Assembly (NCBI RefSeq): GCF_000469585.1
Contig: NZ_AWNK01000005.1
Coordinates: 265,100-329,099, forward strand
DNA length: 64,000 bases
DNA from: Chrysiogenes arsenatis DSM 11915
Lineage (GTDB): Bacteria > Chrysiogenota > Chrysiogenetes > Chrysiogenales > Chrysiogenaceae
Reading direction: 5' to 3'
In this document: positions 37,199 to 44,425 of the stretch, one piece after another
Numbering within the stretch: position 1 is the stretch's first letter
Layout of the letters: the number at the start of each line of letters is the position of its first letter
Program-made: the position numbers and the translations under genes
Notes under the pieces: model-generated
Database searches by the model: none
Seen by the model: only the letters and a program-made list of their open reading frames with translations
Told to the model about the DNA's origin: nothing

Positions 37199-37789
37199 TC
37201 ACTTTAGAGCGTCCTGAGTGAGTTCATCTTCCAGACGCCGGATTGCGGCGACCAAATTACGAAAACTGGGTGAACGTTCGTTCTCTACTCTCAGGTGCTG
37301 GCCAATAGCTCTCGAACCGGCAACTTTTTCATAGCGCTGTTTTGTCAACGCTTTCAGCTCTCTACTTGGACTCCCGAGCTGATCCGGCTCGCGATACTTT
37401 TGGGTCTGCTGCCACTTTGCCAGCCCGCGAAGCTGGAGTGCCTGCTCGACAGCGTGCAAATCTGCAAGGTAAAATGATTCCAATTCCCGACACGCAATAC
37501 GAACAAGGCATTTATCGGCCTTACCCGTCTCACGACAGAGTTCAAGTAATCTTCCTTTGACCGCAGTGCAGTCGGGGTGACTATCTAAGTCGCGTAGAAC
37601 GACAAATCGAGCCTGACTATTCTGGTACGCCCGAATTTTGCGTACCAACTGCTTTTCCAAATCTTGCTTACCTTCAAAGGGGATGCAACGGAACTTAATG
37701 CCGGCATCAGCATTCAGTAAGCGCGGCAACAGCGATTCTAGCAGGGCTTTAGCAGAGGGCTCTTCGAGCAGGAACACTAACTCTTTCAT
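37199..37789 (-). CDS. DUF4276 family protein (TOPRIM-like)
   Basis: A 196-residue protein. KELVFLLEEPSAKALLESLLPRLL has the early Glu of TOPRIM-like folds, and FVVLRDLDSHPDC supplies the D-x-D pair typical of metal-dependent nucleases. C-terminal part: ACRELESFYLAD. It overlaps the ATPase gene by 4 nt and follows it on the same strand. AAA-ATPase plus TOPRIM/DUF4276 pairs resemble OLD- and PARIS-type defence modules, so it is probably the effector nuclease. Confidence 0.72.
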   Translation of the reverse strand: MKELVFLLEEPSAKALLESLLPRLLNADAGIKFRCIPFEGKQDLEKQLVRKIRAYQNSQARFVVLRDLDSHPDCTAVKGRLLELCRETGKADKCLVRIACRELESFYLADLHAVEQALQLRGLAKWQQTQKYREPDQLGSPSRELKALTKQRYEKVAGSRAIGQHLRVENERSPSFRNLVAAIRRLEDELTQDALK

Positions 37790-38979
37790 AGAGGGTCGAC
37801 CCCATCAAAGAAACCTTGTTTCCATAAATACCCGAGTTGATCACCTTCGGCAATATACGCGGCGATCTGATTGTTATCTTTGGCTCGGTGGATATGTGTG
37901 CAACCGTCCACCTTTACGAGCCAGCACACTTCTTCTATTTCTAGTGCATTGAGGAAATCAGGGGAGTGGGTGGTGACAAAGACCTGACCTCCACGGTTGG
38001 CATAACTCCGAAACTCTTCAGCAAGTTCTGACATTAACTGTGGGTAGAGCTGGTTTTCCGGCTCCTCTACACAGAGCAGAGGGTGAGGCTTGGGATCGTA
38101 AAGCAGCACAAGATAGGCAAACATCTTGATGGTACCATCCGACACATAGCGATCAAGAAAAGGGGTTTTAAATGAACCATCCTGAAACTTTAGCGTGAGA
38201 TACCCATCATCCATGAGCTTCGGCTCAACCGACGCGATGCCGGGAACACGTTTCGCCATGATAGCGAGAATACGATCGAAAATAGCTGAGTGTTCCTCGT
38301 GCAGATAGCGCGCCACCAATGGCAAATTGTCACCAGTTTGCGAGAGGTGCTCCGTTTCGCCTGCGGCATCTTTACGGCCGCGTGCCGCGCTAATATGAAA
38401 GTCTGACACATGCCAATTTTCAATGAGGCGGCGAAAGGCATTCGCTGCCTTAAAGCGCTCGAATTGTCCCAGCCCTTTGATTGCGAGTGTTTCAGGCGCA
38501 ACTTTTTGCGTTTCGCGCTCAAGCTCCTCATCGGCTTTACTGAAGTCTTCTTCATTCGTAATCGCAAATCCTTCACCATTTTCAAAGTTAAGGAAATGAA
38601 AAGGACTCCCATATTGACCGCGTTTGTAACGCAATATTTCTTTCAGCACTACAGGGGAACCGCTCTGCTCACCGATTTCCAGCGAGTACGTCACGAGTCG
38701 TTTCTTTTTGGCTATTACCATGCGATACTGAATTTCGATAAGGATAGTATCTGATTGCGGATTGCAGCCACGACTTAATACTTCGACAAAACGTCCACGC
38801 TTATCGAGTGCCTGGCGAACATTTCCTTTCAGACAGTCATGTAAAAAGCCGAAAATGTCAAACAGAGTCGACTTACCTGTACCGTTCGCACCCACAACCA
38901 CAAGAAAAGCTGGAATATCTTTTAAGTGTACGTCGCGGAATGCCTTGAAATTTTTCAAGCGGATGGATTCGATTTTCAT
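37786..38979 (-). CDS. AAA ATPase (AAA_21/OLD-like), partner of DUF4276 protein
   Basis: A 397-residue ABC/SMC-type ATPase. Walker A VGANGTGKSTLFD lies at residues 31-43, Walker B LLCVEEPENQLYP at ~300, and the H-loop VTTHSPDFLNALE near 340. Between them lies a variable sensor region. The start IESIRLKNFKAFRDVHL is typical of overcoming-lysogenisation-defect-like proteins. With the TOPRIM-like partner it likely detects a phage trigger and activates cleavage; this is inferred from gene pairing, not shown. Confidence 0.8.
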   Translation of the reverse strand: MKIESIRLKNFKAFRDVHLKDIPAFLVVVGANGTGKSTLFDIFGFLHDCLKGNVRQALDKRGRFVEVLSRGCNPQSDTILIEIQYRMVIAKKKRLVTYSLEIGEQSGSPVVLKEILRYKRGQYGSPFHFLNFENGEGFAITNEEDFSKADEELERETQKVAPETLAIKGLGQFERFKAANAFRRLIENWHVSDFHISAARGRKDAAGETEHLSQTGDNLPLVARYLHEEHSAIFDRILAIMAKRVPGIASVEPKLMDDGYLTLKFQDGSFKTPFLDRYVSDGTIKMFAYLVLLYDPKPHPLLCVEEPENQLYPQLMSELAEEFRSYANRGGQVFVTTHSPDFLNALEIEEVCWLVKVDGCTHIHRAKDNNQIAAYIAEGDQLGYLWKQGFFDGVDPL

Positions 38980-39152: not shown

Positions 39153-39815
39153 ATGGCAGCAGTAAAAATATCTGGGCGAAAAAAAGCTAAAATAGAAGGC
39201 AAGCATGTTCATCAACAAACGCATCCGCGAAATCGAAAAGTAAAAACAGTGTTTACATCTCCTTTTCCCGATCACCATTTCGCATTGCTGATGCACCATG
39301 CACAACAGGGCTGTCAAACGCACTATCACCAACTCCTCACAGAAATAGCACCTTATCTGCGCAGCTATTTTGCCACGCGCGTGCCAGAGGGTGAAGGGGA
39401 AGATTTGGTGCAGGAAACCCTGCTGGCTATCCACCGCTCCAGCCACACGTTCAATACTGAACGGTCGTTTAAAAACTGGATGTTCGCCATCGCCAGCTAC
39501 AAGTTGGCCGACTTCCTGCGCGACCATTACCGGCACGAGCGACGACAGGTTAATCTCGACGAAGCCGCAGCAGTGGCAATCCCTTCCGACGAAATGCTTT
39601 TTGATGACCGCGAACAACTCATAAAAATTCTTGCAACTTTACCCGAAAAACAACGAACCATTCTACAGATGCTAAAACTCGAAGGGCATTCCACGCGCGA
39701 AGTCGCGCGCGCACTCGGAATGAGCGAAACAGCAGTGAAAACCGCCGCACACCGAGCCTTACAAGAACTGGCCCACACGGCGATAAAAGAGGAGAAATAC
39801 CATGCGCACCGATGA
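39153..39815 (+). CDS. ECF-type RNA polymerase sigma factor
   Basis: Up to 220 residues. Region 2 reads DLVQETLLAIHRSSHTF ... FKNWMFAIASYKLADFLRD, which melts and recognises the -10 element; region 4 reads LPEKQRTILQMLKLEGHSTREVARALGMSETAVKTAAHRAL for the -35 element. The partner downstream is NrsF-like, placing it with Caulobacter SigF-type factors that answer heavy-metal or redox stress. The start is doubtful: the ATG at 39153 lies in a hairpin (GCCATTCC at 39135-39142 pairs with GGAATGGC at 39150-39157) and the first ~35 residues look non-conserved, so a GTG at 39249 or a later ATG may be used. Confidence 0.85.
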   Translation: MAAVKISGRKKAKIEGKHVHQQTHPRNRKVKTVFTSPFPDHHFALLMHHAQQGCQTHYHQLLTEIAPYLRSYFATRVPEGEGEDLVQETLLAIHRSSHTFNTERSFKNWMFAIASYKLADFLRDHYRHERRQVNLDEAAAVAIPSDEMLFDDREQLIKILATLPEKQRTILQMLKLEGHSTREVARALGMSETAVKTAAHRALQELAHTAIKEEKYHAHR

Positions 39816-40470
39816 CCTGATCGCACAATTAGCTGCTGCTGGCGCTCGTCCGCCACTTCCATCTCCCGCAAAAACCATCACTTACTGGGTAGGCGGGCTG
39901 GGGCTCTATTTCTTGGTGCTCATTTTTTGGCATGGCGCACGACCTGATTTGGCCGAAAAACTCCAACAAACGCTCTTCTGGGGCGAGCTGACGATTATGC
40001 TTGCCATCACCACCAGCGCTCTGTGGGTTGCCGGATGGCTCGCGCTCCCCGATGGCGTGGATAGCCGTTGGAAACGGTTGCTACCACTGTTACCACTTAT
40101 CTTACTTGCGGGAACGCTTCTCTACGCCACCACCGCGCCCGATGCTCTGAGCCTGAGCGAGTGCCTACGCAATCACCATTTCGATTGTCTGGCGCGCGTT
40201 CTCTTGTACGCCATCCTCCCAGCACTTTGGATGACCGTGGCAATTCGTCGGGGCGCACCCACAAAACCACGCTGGGCCGGAGCAATGATCGGCCTCGCCG
40301 CTACTTCCGGTGGCTATATCCTGCTACGCATTACCGAAGCCAGCGACGATCCAACACAACTGATCGTTTGGCACTTTTTCCCGGTGATTCTTCTTACCCT
40401 CCTCGGCGGAGCATTCGGACGCTCTTTGTTTGCGGCAGTGTGGAAAAAAAAGAACCATAAAATTCCTTAA
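39802..40470 (+). CDS. nrsF: NrsF-like anti-sigma factor (DUF1109)
   Basis: A 222-residue membrane protein with six hydrophobic segments, characteristic of DUF1109/NrsF. It overlaps the sigma gene by 14 nt, the usual sigma/anti-sigma order. In Caulobacter NrsF two conserved periplasmic cysteines control the release of SigF under chromate or cadmium stress; here C121 and C129 lie in SLSECLRNHHFDCL between helices. The cytoplasmic N-terminus (MRTDDLIAQLAAA) would bind the sigma factor. Confidence 0.83.
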   Translation: MRTDDLIAQLAAAGARPPLPSPAKTITYWVGGLGLYFLVLIFWHGARPDLAEKLQQTLFWGELTIMLAITTSALWVAGWLALPDGVDSRWKRLLPLLPLILLAGTLLYATTAPDALSLSECLRNHHFDCLARVLLYAILPALWMTVAIRRGAPTKPRWAGAMIGLAATSGGYILLRITEASDDPTQLIVWHFFPVILLTLLGGAFGRSLFAAVWKKKNHKIP

Positions 40471-40515
40471 ATCAGGGTCGCGCATATTTTTAATCCGTTA
40501 CCGTAAAAATATCGC

Positions 40516-40540
40516 GTAACCTTTGCGTGTGTCCCGCGAA
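40516..40540 (+). promoter_or_regulatory. Candidate ECF-sigma promoter of the arsS-like operon
   Basis: GTAACC (40516-40521) and CGAA (40537-40540), spaced by 15 bases, lie 39 bases before the arsS-like ATG. SigF of Caulobacter is reported to use GTAACC with CGAA at about 16 bases, so the sigma/NrsF pair upstream could read it. GTTAC (40498-40502) and GTAAC also form an inverted repeat. Confidence 0.45.
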
Positions 40541-40578
40541 TCACGTTTGAGAAGAGAACATTACTCCGGAGAACCAAT

Positions 40579-41556
40579 ATGACGAACTTGACGGCCACTA
40601 CCCCACTTACATTCAACCAAACTCTTGCGGAACAGATCATTGCGTTGCGCCGAGCCACCATCACCACCATGCAGATCAACCTTGGCAAGACCTGCAATCA
40701 GACGTGTCGACACTGCCACGTCGCGGCGGGGCCACACCGTACCGAAAGCATGAACCGCGAAACTGCCGAACGGATTCTCACCTTGCTTGCGGCCAGCCCC
40801 ACCGTTACCACGCTTGATATTACCGGCGGCGCGCCTGAGATCAACCCCAACTTTCGCTTTTTAGTAAGCGAAGCGCGAAAGCTGGGCAAACATGTGCTAA
40901 ATCGCTGCAATCTCACCGTTCTTTTTGAAGCGGGGCAAGAGGATACGGCGTCGTTTCTCGCGGAACAACACGTGGAGGTCATCGCCTCCCTCCCCTGCTA
41001 TCTCGAAGAGAACGTCTGCCAGCAACGTGGCGACGGCGTGTTTGCCAAAAGCATCGCCGCGCTGCAACTCCTCAACAGCCTAGGATACGGTACGGTTGAT
41101 TCGCTGCTACGGCTGAATCTCGTCTACAACCCCAGCGGTGGATTTTTGCCACCCGCGCAAAATAAACTCGAAGACGCCTACAAAGCGCACCTTGGCGAGC
41201 ACTACGGCATCGTGTTCAATAATCTCTATACCATTGCCAATATGCCCATCACCCGCTACCGCGATCTACTCCAGCATGAAGGGGCGCTCGATGGATATTT
41301 ACAGCTATTGCGCGATAATTTTAACCTCGCCGCTGCGCACCACCTGATGTGCACCAGCCAGATATCCATTGGCTACGATGGCACACTCTATGACTGCGAT
41401 TTTAACCAAGCATTGGAGTTACCCGCCGGAAATCAACTGGCGACGATATTTGATATCGCGTCACTGAACGAAATAACGCACAACATTGCCACCGCCGAAC
41501 ACTGCTTTGGCTGTACAGCAGGAGCGGGAAGCTCTTGCGGGGGAGCGCTGGCGTGA
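40579..41556 (+). CDS. arsS: ArsS-like radical SAM protein (DUF3641 C-terminus)
   Basis: A 325-residue radical SAM enzyme with C39, C43 and C46 in CNQTCRHC; ITGGAPE is the GGE-type SAM motif. The C-terminal DUF3641 holds further cysteines (CTSQISIGYDGTLYDCDFN and the end HCFGCTAGAGSSCGG), typical of proteins annotated 'arsenosugar biosynthesis radical SAM ArsS'. Some relatives are selenoproteins at the terminal SSxGG; here the codon is TGC (Cys). It probably acts on arsenicals or related small molecules. GGAG precedes the ATG. Confidence 0.85.
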   Translation: MTNLTATTPLTFNQTLAEQIIALRRATITTMQINLGKTCNQTCRHCHVAAGPHRTESMNRETAERILTLLAASPTVTTLDITGGAPEINPNFRFLVSEARKLGKHVLNRCNLTVLFEAGQEDTASFLAEQHVEVIASLPCYLEENVCQQRGDGVFAKSIAALQLLNSLGYGTVDSLLRLNLVYNPSGGFLPPAQNKLEDAYKAHLGEHYGIVFNNLYTIANMPITRYRDLLQHEGALDGYLQLLRDNFNLAAAHHLMCTSQISIGYDGTLYDCDFNQALELPAGNQLATIFDIASLNEITHNIATAEHCFGCTAGAGSSCGGALA

Positions 41557-42278
41557 CATTGCGTTTCGCTATTCATGTGAATGTGCGCCACATATTTATC
41601 AAAGCCGTTTTCTTGATTGCTCTGCTGCTCTTACTTGCTCCCCCCGTAGCGTCCGCGCCGCCAGCGAAAACACTCGACTTTGGCGATCAATGGCAGGAAC
41701 AAACCTTCCGCAAGACGGCACCGACAACCTATCAGCAGTTGAACGAAGCCGGGAAACCGATCATGCGAGCGCAAGCAAATGGTGCCGCTTCCGGCCTCGT
41801 CTACGAAATTGATTTTGACCCTGCCGTGTACCCCATCCTGAAATGGCGTTGGAAGATAGATCAGGTGCTTCCGCTGGGCGATGCCCGCACCAAAGCGGGC
41901 GACGACTATCCCGCGCGTGTCTATGTGGTCTTCCCTAAATGGTTTAAACCAGCAACCCAAAGCATCAACTACATTTGGGCAAACCGGCTTCCACAGGGCG
42001 AGGTAATTCCCAACCCATTTTTTGACAACGCCCGCATGGTAGCGGTGCGCAGCGGCAATGGCGATGCGGGAATATGGCACACCGAGTGCCGCAACATCTA
42101 CCGCGACTATCAGGCGATTTTTGGCGAAGCGCCGCCGCGCGCCGGAGCCATCGCGATTATGACGGATGCCGACAATACCGGAGGGACTGCAACAGGATAC
42201 TACGCCGACATTCAACTCCTCACCGCGCCAAAAGAGAGCGATCCAGCGACGTTTTGTGGCCATAAGGACACCCGATGA
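41553..42278 (+). CDS. DUF3047 family secreted protein
   Basis: About 241 residues. A hydrophobic signal segment (FIKAVFLIALLLLLAPPVASA) is followed by the DUF3047 pattern: ILKWRWKIDQVLP, DDYPARVYVVFP, NYIWANRLP and AIAIMTDADNTGG. The function of the family is unknown; it is periplasmic. I choose the GTG at 41553, which forms GTGA with the arsS stop and has GGGGGAG 7 bases before. The ATG at 41535 is the alternative. It overlaps the next gene by 4 nt, so the three genes form one operon. Confidence 0.75.
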   Translation: MTLRFAIHVNVRHIFIKAVFLIALLLLLAPPVASAPPAKTLDFGDQWQEQTFRKTAPTTYQQLNEAGKPIMRAQANGAASGLVYEIDFDPAVYPILKWRWKIDQVLPLGDARTKAGDDYPARVYVVFPKWFKPATQSINYIWANRLPQGEVIPNPFFDNARMVAVRSGNGDAGIWHTECRNIYRDYQAIFGEAPPRAGAIAIMTDADNTGGTATGYYADIQLLTAPKESDPATFCGHKDTR

Positions 42279-44425
42279 AACCACGCTACCGCAATCTACT
42301 CATCGCACTGGTGCTCATCACCCTTTGGTTCGGGCTGTATCATTTTTTCGGCGATCTGCTGACATTTGAAGCCCTGAAAGCCAAGCAACAGGCATGGGCG
42401 GAAATTCACCATGACAATACCGTGGCAACCCTTGCGCTTTACTTTATTGTTTATGTCATTGCCACGGCTATTTCTCTGCCGGGGGCGGTAATCTTGACGT
42501 TAGCAGGGGGCGCACTTTTTGGCTTTACGACTGGGCTGCTGCTGGTCTCCTTCGCTAGCACCATCGGTGCAACTTGTGCTTTTTTACTGGCGCGCACCCT
42601 TTTTCGCGACACCGTACAAAAACAGTTTGGTCAACAATTACAACGCTTGAATGATGGGGTAAAACGCGACGGCGCCTTGTATCTGTTTACCTTGCGCCTT
42701 GTGCCAATCTTTCCCTTCTTTGTCATCAACCTGCTGATGGGGCTGACGCCGATGCGCACAATAACGTTCTATTGGGTCAGCCAAATCGGAATGCTGGCGG
42801 GGACGGCGGTGTATGTCAATGCGGGAACGCAGCTTGGACAGCTTGATTCCTTGCAGGGGATTCTTTCGCCAACGCTGCTTCTTTCATTTGCGCTCATCGG
42901 CGTTCTGCCACTCTTCGCACGGCGTATCGCGGCTCTGGTACAGGCCAAACGCGCCTATGCTGCTTACCCGCACCCCAAAACGTTTGACTATGATCTTGTG
43001 GTGATCGGTGCGGGTGCCGCTGGATTGGTGAGCGCCTACATCGGTGCGGCACTGAAAGCCAAAGTGCTTTTAGTCGAGCGCGAAAAAATGGGGGGCGATT
43101 GCCTGAACACCGGATGCGTGCCGAGCAAATCGCTGCTGCATGCCGCCAAAGTGCGCCATACGCTACGCCACAGCGCTGACATCGGGATTGCTTCACCGGA
43201 AATGGCGGTCGATTTTCCGGCGGTAATGCGTTCCGTCAAACAGGCCATTGCGCACATTGAACCGCACGATTCTGTCGCACGTTATAGCGCCCTTGGGGTG
43301 GAGTGTATTGCTGGAAAAGCCCATATTGATTCGCCGTTTACGGTCGATGTGGCGGGGAAAAAAGTGACGACGCGCAACATCATCATCGCCAGCGGCGCAG
43401 CTCCTGTTCTCCCCAATATTCCCGGTCTGCGCGATGTGCCACACTACACCAGCGACACTATTTGGGGTATCACGGCGCTTCCGCCCAAGCTGATTGTGCT
43501 CGGCGGCGGCCCTATTGGCTGCGAACTGGCACAGGCTTTTGCCCGTCTGGGAAGCGAAGTGACGATTATACAGCGTAATCGTCAGCTTTTACCACGCGAA
43601 GACGATGACGTGGCCACGTTGATACAGCAGATATTTGAACGTGAAGGGATTCGTGTGTTGACCGCCCACACCGCGCTGGAAGTGCGCCCTCACGCTGGTG
43701 GCGATGGCATCCATCACTTCCTTATTCAATCAGCTGACGGCGAAGCCATCACCATCCCTTGCGATGCCGTTTTAATCGCCCTTGGACGTCAGCCGCGCAC
43801 GCAGGGATTTGGGCTGGAGGAGTTGGGAATTACAACCACTCCGGCCGGCACTCTTGCGGTTGATGCCTATTTGCGAACAAAATATCCCAATATTTTGGCC
43901 TGTGGTGACGTTGCCGGGCCGTATCAATTCACTCATACCGCGTCGCATCAGGCGTGGTACGCCGCTGTCAATGCACTGATCCGCCCGCTGCACCAGTTTG
44001 CTGCCGATTACCGCGTGATTCCGTGGTGTACGTTTACCGACCCTGAAGTAGCGCGGGTTGGACTTTCGGAAGCCGAGGCCACCGCGCAGGGGATCGCCTT
44101 TGAAGTGACCCGTTATGGAATTGACGACCTGGATCGTGCCATTGCCGACAACTGCGCCGAAGGGTTTGTCAAAGTGCTAACGGTGCCGGGCAAAGATACC
44201 ATCCTCGGTGTGACCATAATCGGCCCACGTGCGGGGGACATTATTGCGGAATGGGTATTGGCAATGAAGCACAAACTCGGCCTCAATACAGTGCTCGGCA
44301 CGATTCATATCTACCCAACCTACGCCGAAGCGAATCGTTTTGCAGCGGGTAACTGGAAAAAATCCCATGCACCACAAGGGATTTTGCGTGCGGTAGAACG
44401 CTGGCATGCGTGGCGACGGGGATAG
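42275..44425 (+). CDS. TVP38/DedA membrane domain fused to mercuric-reductase-like flavoprotein
   Basis: A 716-residue fusion. Residues 1-~225 are a TVP38/TMEM64 (SNARE-associated) domain with several helices, including ATAISLPGAVILTLAGGALFG in two parts. Residues ~238-716 are a class I pyridine nucleotide-disulfide reductase: FAD motif VIGAGAAG (243-250), redox pair C276/C281 in GGDCLNTGCVPSK, NAD motif LGGGPIGCELA, and dimer motif HIYPTYAE where mercuric reductase or lipoamide dehydrogenase has HAHPT. The N-terminal metal-binding HMA domain of MerA and its terminal Cys pair are absent. It probably passes electrons to a membrane-near substrate. Confidence 0.85.
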   Translation: MKPRYRNLLIALVLITLWFGLYHFFGDLLTFEALKAKQQAWAEIHHDNTVATLALYFIVYVIATAISLPGAVILTLAGGALFGFTTGLLLVSFASTIGATCAFLLARTLFRDTVQKQFGQQLQRLNDGVKRDGALYLFTLRLVPIFPFFVINLLMGLTPMRTITFYWVSQIGMLAGTAVYVNAGTQLGQLDSLQGILSPTLLLSFALIGVLPLFARRIAALVQAKRAYAAYPHPKTFDYDLVVIGAGAAGLVSAYIGAALKAKVLLVEREKMGGDCLNTGCVPSKSLLHAAKVRHTLRHSADIGIASPEMAVDFPAVMRSVKQAIAHIEPHDSVARYSALGVECIAGKAHIDSPFTVDVAGKKVTTRNIIIASGAAPVLPNIPGLRDVPHYTSDTIWGITALPPKLIVLGGGPIGCELAQAFARLGSEVTIIQRNRQLLPREDDDVATLIQQIFEREGIRVLTAHTALEVRPHAGGDGIHHFLIQSADGEAITIPCDAVLIALGRQPRTQGFGLEELGITTTPAGTLAVDAYLRTKYPNILACGDVAGPYQFTHTASHQAWYAAVNALIRPLHQFAADYRVIPWCTFTDPEVARVGLSEAEATAQGIAFEVTRYGIDDLDRAIADNCAEGFVKVLTVPGKDTILGVTIIGPRAGDIIAEWVLAMKHKLGLNTVLGTIHIYPTYAEANRFAAGNWKKSHAPQGILRAVERWHAWRRG

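Follow-up and report, generated by a model that had tools for sequence, protein, structure and literature searches.

The window analysed here, a 64-kb stretch of the Chrysiogenes arsenatis genome (C3:265100-329099; the genome searched comprises 2,825,161 bases in 22 contigs), carries a gene pair for an ECF sigma factor and an NrsF-type anti-sigma factor, followed by a promoter-like element and three further genes (Table 1). All five genes lie where an earlier note had placed them, and the family profile scores agree with the identities given there. The sigma factor and NrsF genes overlap by 14 bp, in the order of ECF16/SigF-NrsF systems (ECF sigma gene, then DUF1109/NrsF gene). Because similarity to the homologue of Desulfurispirillum indicum (50.5% identity, L144:8264-8809) begins at residue 36, GTG 39249 is the probable start of the sigma factor. 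Downstream, the stop codon of arsS overlaps the start of duf3047 by 4 bp (GTGA), and duf3047 in turn overlaps the TVP38/reductase gene (ATGA), so that the three genes form one translationally coupled operon; the start of duf3047 is probably GTG 41553, within the GTGA overlap. C. arsenatis comes from gold-mine mud, is strictly anaerobic and reduces arsenate to arsenite in its respiration (PMC3828317).

Table 1. Features of the C. arsenatis locus, in coordinates of the window.
Feature	Position	Strand	Evidence and remarks
ECF sigma factor, SigF/ECF16-like	39153..39815	+	Sigma70_r2 and r4_2; likely true start GTG 39249
NrsF (DUF1109) membrane anti-sigma factor	39802..40470	+	PF06532, E=2.7e-34
SigF-type promoter GTAACC-N15-CGAA	40516..40540	+	CGAA end 38 bp 5' of the arsS ATG; like sites before homologous operons
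arsS, radical SAM protein with DUF3641 C-terminus	40579..41556	+	TIGR04167, 435.6 bits
DUF3047, predicted exported beta-sandwich protein	41553..42278	+	PF11249, E=9.7e-63
TVP38/VTT membrane domain fused to FAD disulfide reductase (Lpd/MerA-like)	42275..44425	+	VTT_dom, Pyr_redox_2, Pyr_redox_dim

The arsS product scores well above the curated TIGR04167 cut-off (435.6 against 300 bits) and combines the radical SAM CX3CX2C motif with the C-terminal cysteine set, all eight cysteines that are invariant in the family alignment being present (39, 43, 46, 258, 273, 309, 312 and 320). For DUF3047, no convincing relative was found in the PDB by sequence, and a fold search with the AF2 model (pLDDT 79) returned weak beta-sandwich/jelly-roll matches (query TM <0.5). 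The nearest solved chain to the reductase domain is dihydrolipoamide dehydrogenase 2eq6, and the domain has the disulfide motif CLNTGC. A full-length mercuric reductase MerA was considered and rejected (TIGR02053, 373 bits against a cut-off of 454). The description of these effectors as an unusual set did not hold up: ArsS with TVP38/reductase is a widespread combination, often accompanied by DUF547, two glycosyltransferases (GT4283 and GT4282) and DUF3047.

The earlier note had also called the arsS-like gene 'arsenosugar-type'. Membership of the ArsS family (TIGR04167) is clear, but no ArsM was found above the NF008823 cut-off in the genome (best match 49.8 bits against 263, which reads as a UbiE-type methyltransferase), nor in any of the three members of the family Chrysiogenaceae that were searched. 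Since ArsM is missing at this cut-off, 'arsenosugar' is better taken here as the name of a family than as a demonstrated function. The glycosyltransferases TIGR04282 and TIGR04283 are encoded elsewhere in the genome by one fused gene that exceeds both cut-offs; this gene is unlinked to arsS and has no motif nearby.

The candidate sensor is the product of the only NrsF gene in the genome. The cysteine equivalent to Caulobacter C131 (here Cys129) is present in 24 of 24 aligned proteins. The equivalent of C181, the second of the two conserved cysteines of Caulobacter NrsF, is missing from C. arsenatis, D. indicum, two Alphaproteobacteria and three Burkholderiales. On account of this absence, the window protein is classed from its residues as a variant of the NrsF kind and not as a SigF-NrsF orthologue; its score against the NCBIfam equivalog NF042994 is 61.9 against 300. 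Both Chrysiogenota proteins carry an extra cysteine (Cys121) eight residues before the first signature cysteine (SECLRNHHFDC). By hydropathy, Cys121 and Cys129 lie in or beside the loop between hydrophobic segments three and four, a loop predicted to be periplasmic if the N-terminus is cytoplasmic. A sequence search of the PDB gave no convincing relative of NrsF.

The element GTAACC-N15-CGAA reported ahead of the arsS-like gene is indeed present (40516-40540) and is the single exact match in the window. Both of its parts are exact with respect to the published SigF consensus GTAACC-N16-CGAA (PMC3511200), with a spacer one base shorter (15 against 16); a second published consensus is (T/C)GTAAC-N17-CGAA (PMC8315932). 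No exact motif was found upstream of sigF within the window. The bare match is weak, since at least one match also occurred in 33 of 100 shuffles of the whole 64-kb window. The genome-wide search that the earlier note had proposed gave a divided answer: by count there was no enrichment (22 matches with spacers of N14-17 against 40 for a reversed-pattern control), but by position the arsS site is unique. Of the 22 matches, 20 fall within ORFs of 104 aa or more, and another, in an intergenic region, is some 200 bp away from an ORF, so that the arsS site is the sole match both outside large ORFs and less than 200 bp from a gene start. The chance of finding an N15/16 site on the plus strand of the 108-bp gap before arsS is about 2e-4.

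In D. indicum (G002), the genes of the cluster are rearranged and split. A sigF-nrsF pair stands in divergent orientation to a TVP38/reductase gene (65% identical), which is followed by GT4283 and GT4282 (the TIGR04282 match, at 133.1 bits, lies just under the cut-off of 134). The divergent region holds an exact GTAACC-N15-CGAA site, GTAACCTTTTCCATCCCACGGCGAA, pointing at the TVP38/reductase gene. At a distance of about 8 kb lies an arsS-duf3047-AhpD group preceded by GTAACT-N16-CGAA. Judging from these sites, the promoter class is kept with the module despite the changed gene order. In G001, the third genome of the family, no match to either NrsF or ArsS exceeded the cut-off.

We compared 80 named ArsS loci and 60 Burkholderiales TVP38/reductase loci using home-made profiles. 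Most ArsS clusters among the surveyed loci belong to genomes without NrsF, and no NrsF was found on plasmids. In two Alphaproteobacteria (L066 and L182), a GT4282-TVP38/reductase-arsS-MTAP-GT4283 cluster is preceded by an exact N15 site whose spacer letters differ, the NrsF genes being located elsewhere in the genome; NrsF adjoining arsS was not found outside Chrysiogenota and Burkholderiales among the surveyed loci. Three Burkholderiales (L222, L256 and L263) carry sigF-nrsF and arsS-TVP38/reductase in divergent orientation, and exact GTAACC-N16-CGAA sites point both ways. In two others (L189 and L298), sigF-nrsF is divergent to TVP38/reductase, an arrangement like that of D. indicum, and L298 carries an exact GTAACC-N16-CGAA site on the sigF side.

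The 60 Burkholderiales loci contain 13 exact N15/16 sites, seven of which lie upstream of an ArsS or TVP38/reductase start at a distance of 350 bp or less, a space that makes up 2.2% of positions. The remaining six belong to the sigF side or, in the case of L269, point away from arsS in the same gap. Permuted motifs (n = 400) gave on average 0.05 such cluster-upstream sites, with a maximum of two, and none reached seven. NrsF was found in 15 of the 59 Burkholderiales genomes surveyed: it is present in all seven motif-bearing genomes and in eight of the 52 others (Fisher p=1.9e-5, a value that overstates independence because five of the seven motif loci fall in one clade with L189). In these eight, NrsF is present but the cluster lacks an exact upstream site. 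At least five changes of the motif are needed on the TVP38/reductase tree. Among phylogenetically independent pairs (n = 5, an underpowered test), NrsF went in the same direction as the motif in 2.3 and in the opposite direction in none, on average. Absence of the motif upstream of orthologous operons had been named beforehand as evidence against the proposed unit; the motif is present there in several NrsF-carrying lineages.

The gene content, the promoter, its conservation and the association of the motif with NrsF, as read from these genomes, make it likely that the locus is an ECF16-type (SigF/NrsF) regulon with the ArsS-type operon as effector. The idea that the SigF/NrsF pair and a SigF-type promoter go with the arsS operon is thus borne out. 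The combination is shared by D. indicum, by two Alphaproteobacteria and by several Burkholderiales, which gives good support, as a genomic prediction, to SigF/NrsF as a recurrent regulator of ArsS clusters.

As to release, signal and chemistry, we infer the following course. NrsF would keep SigF at the inner membrane until a periplasmic thiol-reactive stress (metal, metalloid or oxidant) acts on it via Cys129, the equivalent of Caulobacter Cys131, and probably also via Cys121 close by. Freed SigF would then initiate transcription at GTAACC-N15-CGAA, 38 bp before arsS, giving a single translationally coupled arsS-duf3047-TVP38/reductase message. The operon would most likely modify a soft, thiol-reactive element, with arsenic as the leading candidate: the membrane-anchored reductase may be the source of reducing power, ArsS may add a deoxyadenosyl-derived sugar, and the exported DUF3047 protein may handle the product outside the cytoplasm.

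The identity of the signal separates two explanations, each of which we hold at somewhat below even chances. The first, a serious contender, is a general thiol/metal stress regulon: the SigF that controls genes for bufferin (a copper chelator) in other bacteria would also have ArsS clusters as effectors, against copper, gold or oxidants and not against arsenic. In several cluster-bearing Burkholderiales (L183, L184, L300, L301, L303, L304 and L308), NrsF has DUF2282/DUF692 bufferin genes as neighbours, bufferin-1 clusters carry SigF/NrsF (PMC12452194), and SigF mediates the copper response of Caulobacter (PMC8224329). An ArsM-type methyltransferase is near none of 11 motif loci and near 34 of 133 other ArsS loci, a difference that points the same way but is not significant (p=0.067, a tendency only). 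Against this explanation, the sigF-nrsF pairs of C. arsenatis and D. indicum showed no neighbouring bufferin gene.

The second explanation, suggested by the earlier note and by the names of the families, and plausible if slightly more tentative, is a dedicated arsenic response in which NrsF senses arsenite from arsenate respiration and the operon makes arsenosugars. The host indeed lives on arsenate and produces arsenite (PMC3828317), a cyanobacterial cluster unites TVP38, a mercuric-reductase-like protein, ArsM and ArsS, C. arsenatis possesses the TIGR04282-TIGR04283 fusion, and the NrsF cysteine pair, eight residues apart, could bind As(III). However, ArsM is missing above cut-off in all three family members, the glycosyltransferase fusion lies apart from the operon with no motif close to it, and motif loci in lineages with no known arsenic tie suggest a broader signal. 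In the respective reports, NrsF systems answer Cr/Cd (PMC3511200), Cu (PMC8224329) and HOCl (PMC8315932), and arsenic is not named as an inducer in their available text. Because of these responses, and of the NrsF genes beside bufferin genes, thiol-reactive envelope stress is on present analysis the safer signal to assume, with arsenic one candidate.

A fortuitous association, with arsS lying by chance after sigF-nrsF, the motif a chance match and the SigF target elsewhere, would fit the unenriched genome count and the matches in one third of window shuffles, but is very improbable given that motif and gene pairing, with spacers that have diverged, are also seen in D. indicum, Alphaproteobacteria and Burkholderiales, that the enrichment is position-specific, and that every motif-bearing genome has NrsF.

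With the SigF/NrsF-controlled ArsS operon as the preferred reading, a more speculative extension, which we regard as rather unlikely as a whole, is that ArsS enzymes in SigF/NrsF clusters without ArsM constitute a functional branch of their own, in which a pathway of radical SAM chemistry, glycosyl transfer and membrane-bound reduction would answer envelope thiol/metal stress and yield a product other than a classical arsenosugar. Its trigger in Chrysiogenota would be the rearranged NrsF cysteine pair, which could sense arsenite.

No paper joining NrsF or DUF1109 to ArsS, arsenosugar or TVP38 was found in the literature searched, mostly open-access papers, and SigF/NrsF control of an ArsS-type operon appears to be undescribed; the papers searched made no mention of such control in Chrysiogenota. 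The pairing across distant bacteria suggests an undescribed control circuit. ArsS-family proteins being widespread, a promoter-defined SigF link yields a testable list of inducers, offers a means to switch the ArsS pathway on in tractable Burkholderiales, calls for a second look at the 'arsenosugar' label wherever a genome lacks ArsM, and would add ArsS operons to bufferins and MsrPQ as a target class of ECF16.

Among known systems, the locus resembles SigF-NrsF of Caulobacter crescentus (ECF16; PMC3511200, PMC8224329) in its adjacent sigma and DUF1109 anti-sigma genes, its GTAACC/CGAA elements and the first NrsF signature cysteine. It differs in its target (arsS here, bufferin-type genes and msrPQ there), its spacer (15 against 16), and an NrsF that lacks the second signature cysteine and has an extra one, eight residues ahead of the first. 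The ECF16 system BcrS-AbcS of Brucella melitensis (PMC8315932) likewise has a DUF1109 anti-sigma factor, a (T/C)GTAAC...CGAA promoter and a small adjacent target operon, but responds to HOCl and controls msrPQ, whereas here a strict anaerobe has an arsS operon as target. The arsenosugar cluster of the Pseudanabaena plasmid pPg_02 shares ArsS with TVP38 and a MerA/Lpd-like reductase; unlike the present locus, it includes ArsM, has no sigF-nrsF nearby and encodes TVP38 and the reductase as separate genes. Finally, ArsS genes of B. glumae and of Acinetobacter plasmids also adjoin an ECF sigma factor; unlike here, they have no NrsF (the anti-sigma factor in B. glumae is a zf-HC2 protein) and have CcdA and thioredoxin genes nearby. 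These clusters suggest repeated origins of ECF control over ArsS.

In one Burkholderiales genome, an exact GTAACC-N16-CGAA site is carried on both the + and - strands of the locus where sigF-nrsF is transcribed divergently from the copper-chelator (bufferin) genes (L301), and the site precedes arsS too at another locus of the same genome (L280). In Desulfurispirillum indicum, the genes listed for this species below lie between the module's sigF half and its arsS half. The stop codons interrupting ArsS in one relative possibly reflect a pseudogene or an assembly error.

Features in the window and at surveyed loci (L-numbers)
Feature	Position	Strand	Remark
TIGR04282-TIGR04283 glycosyltransferase fusion, single gene	L165:9305-11434	-	C. 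arsenatis contig C1
Extended series of ORFs on one strand	window ~1-28000	-	from ORF starts
AAA ATPase and DUF4276 pair	window 37199-38979	-	upstream of sigF
ArsR-type regulator, cysteine desulfurase, DsrE-like protein, small methyltransferase	L144:13182-15611	-	D. indicum
ArsS frame with internal stop codons	L061:8909-9807		one relative (G018)
sigF-nrsF and bufferin genes (DUF2282, DUF692) in divergent orientation	L301:6996-9499		Burkholderiales

The C. arsenatis glycosyltransferase fusion is a protein of 479 aa with a Lys/Arg-rich N-terminus, and its gene adjoins one for a small membrane protein. Within the window, the AAA ATPase/DUF4276 pair weakly resembles MAD3/MAD4 of a methylation-associated defence system, with scores under the cut-offs of the family profile search, and the long ORF series looks, from ORF starts alone, like a fatty-acid/aryl-polyene-type biosynthetic cluster.

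On plasmids of B. glumae and Acinetobacter (L176 and L310), arsS clusters adjoin CcdA/thioredoxin genes and also an ECF sigma factor without NrsF, a zf-HC2 anti-sigma being present in B. glumae; ECF control over ArsS may therefore have more than one origin.
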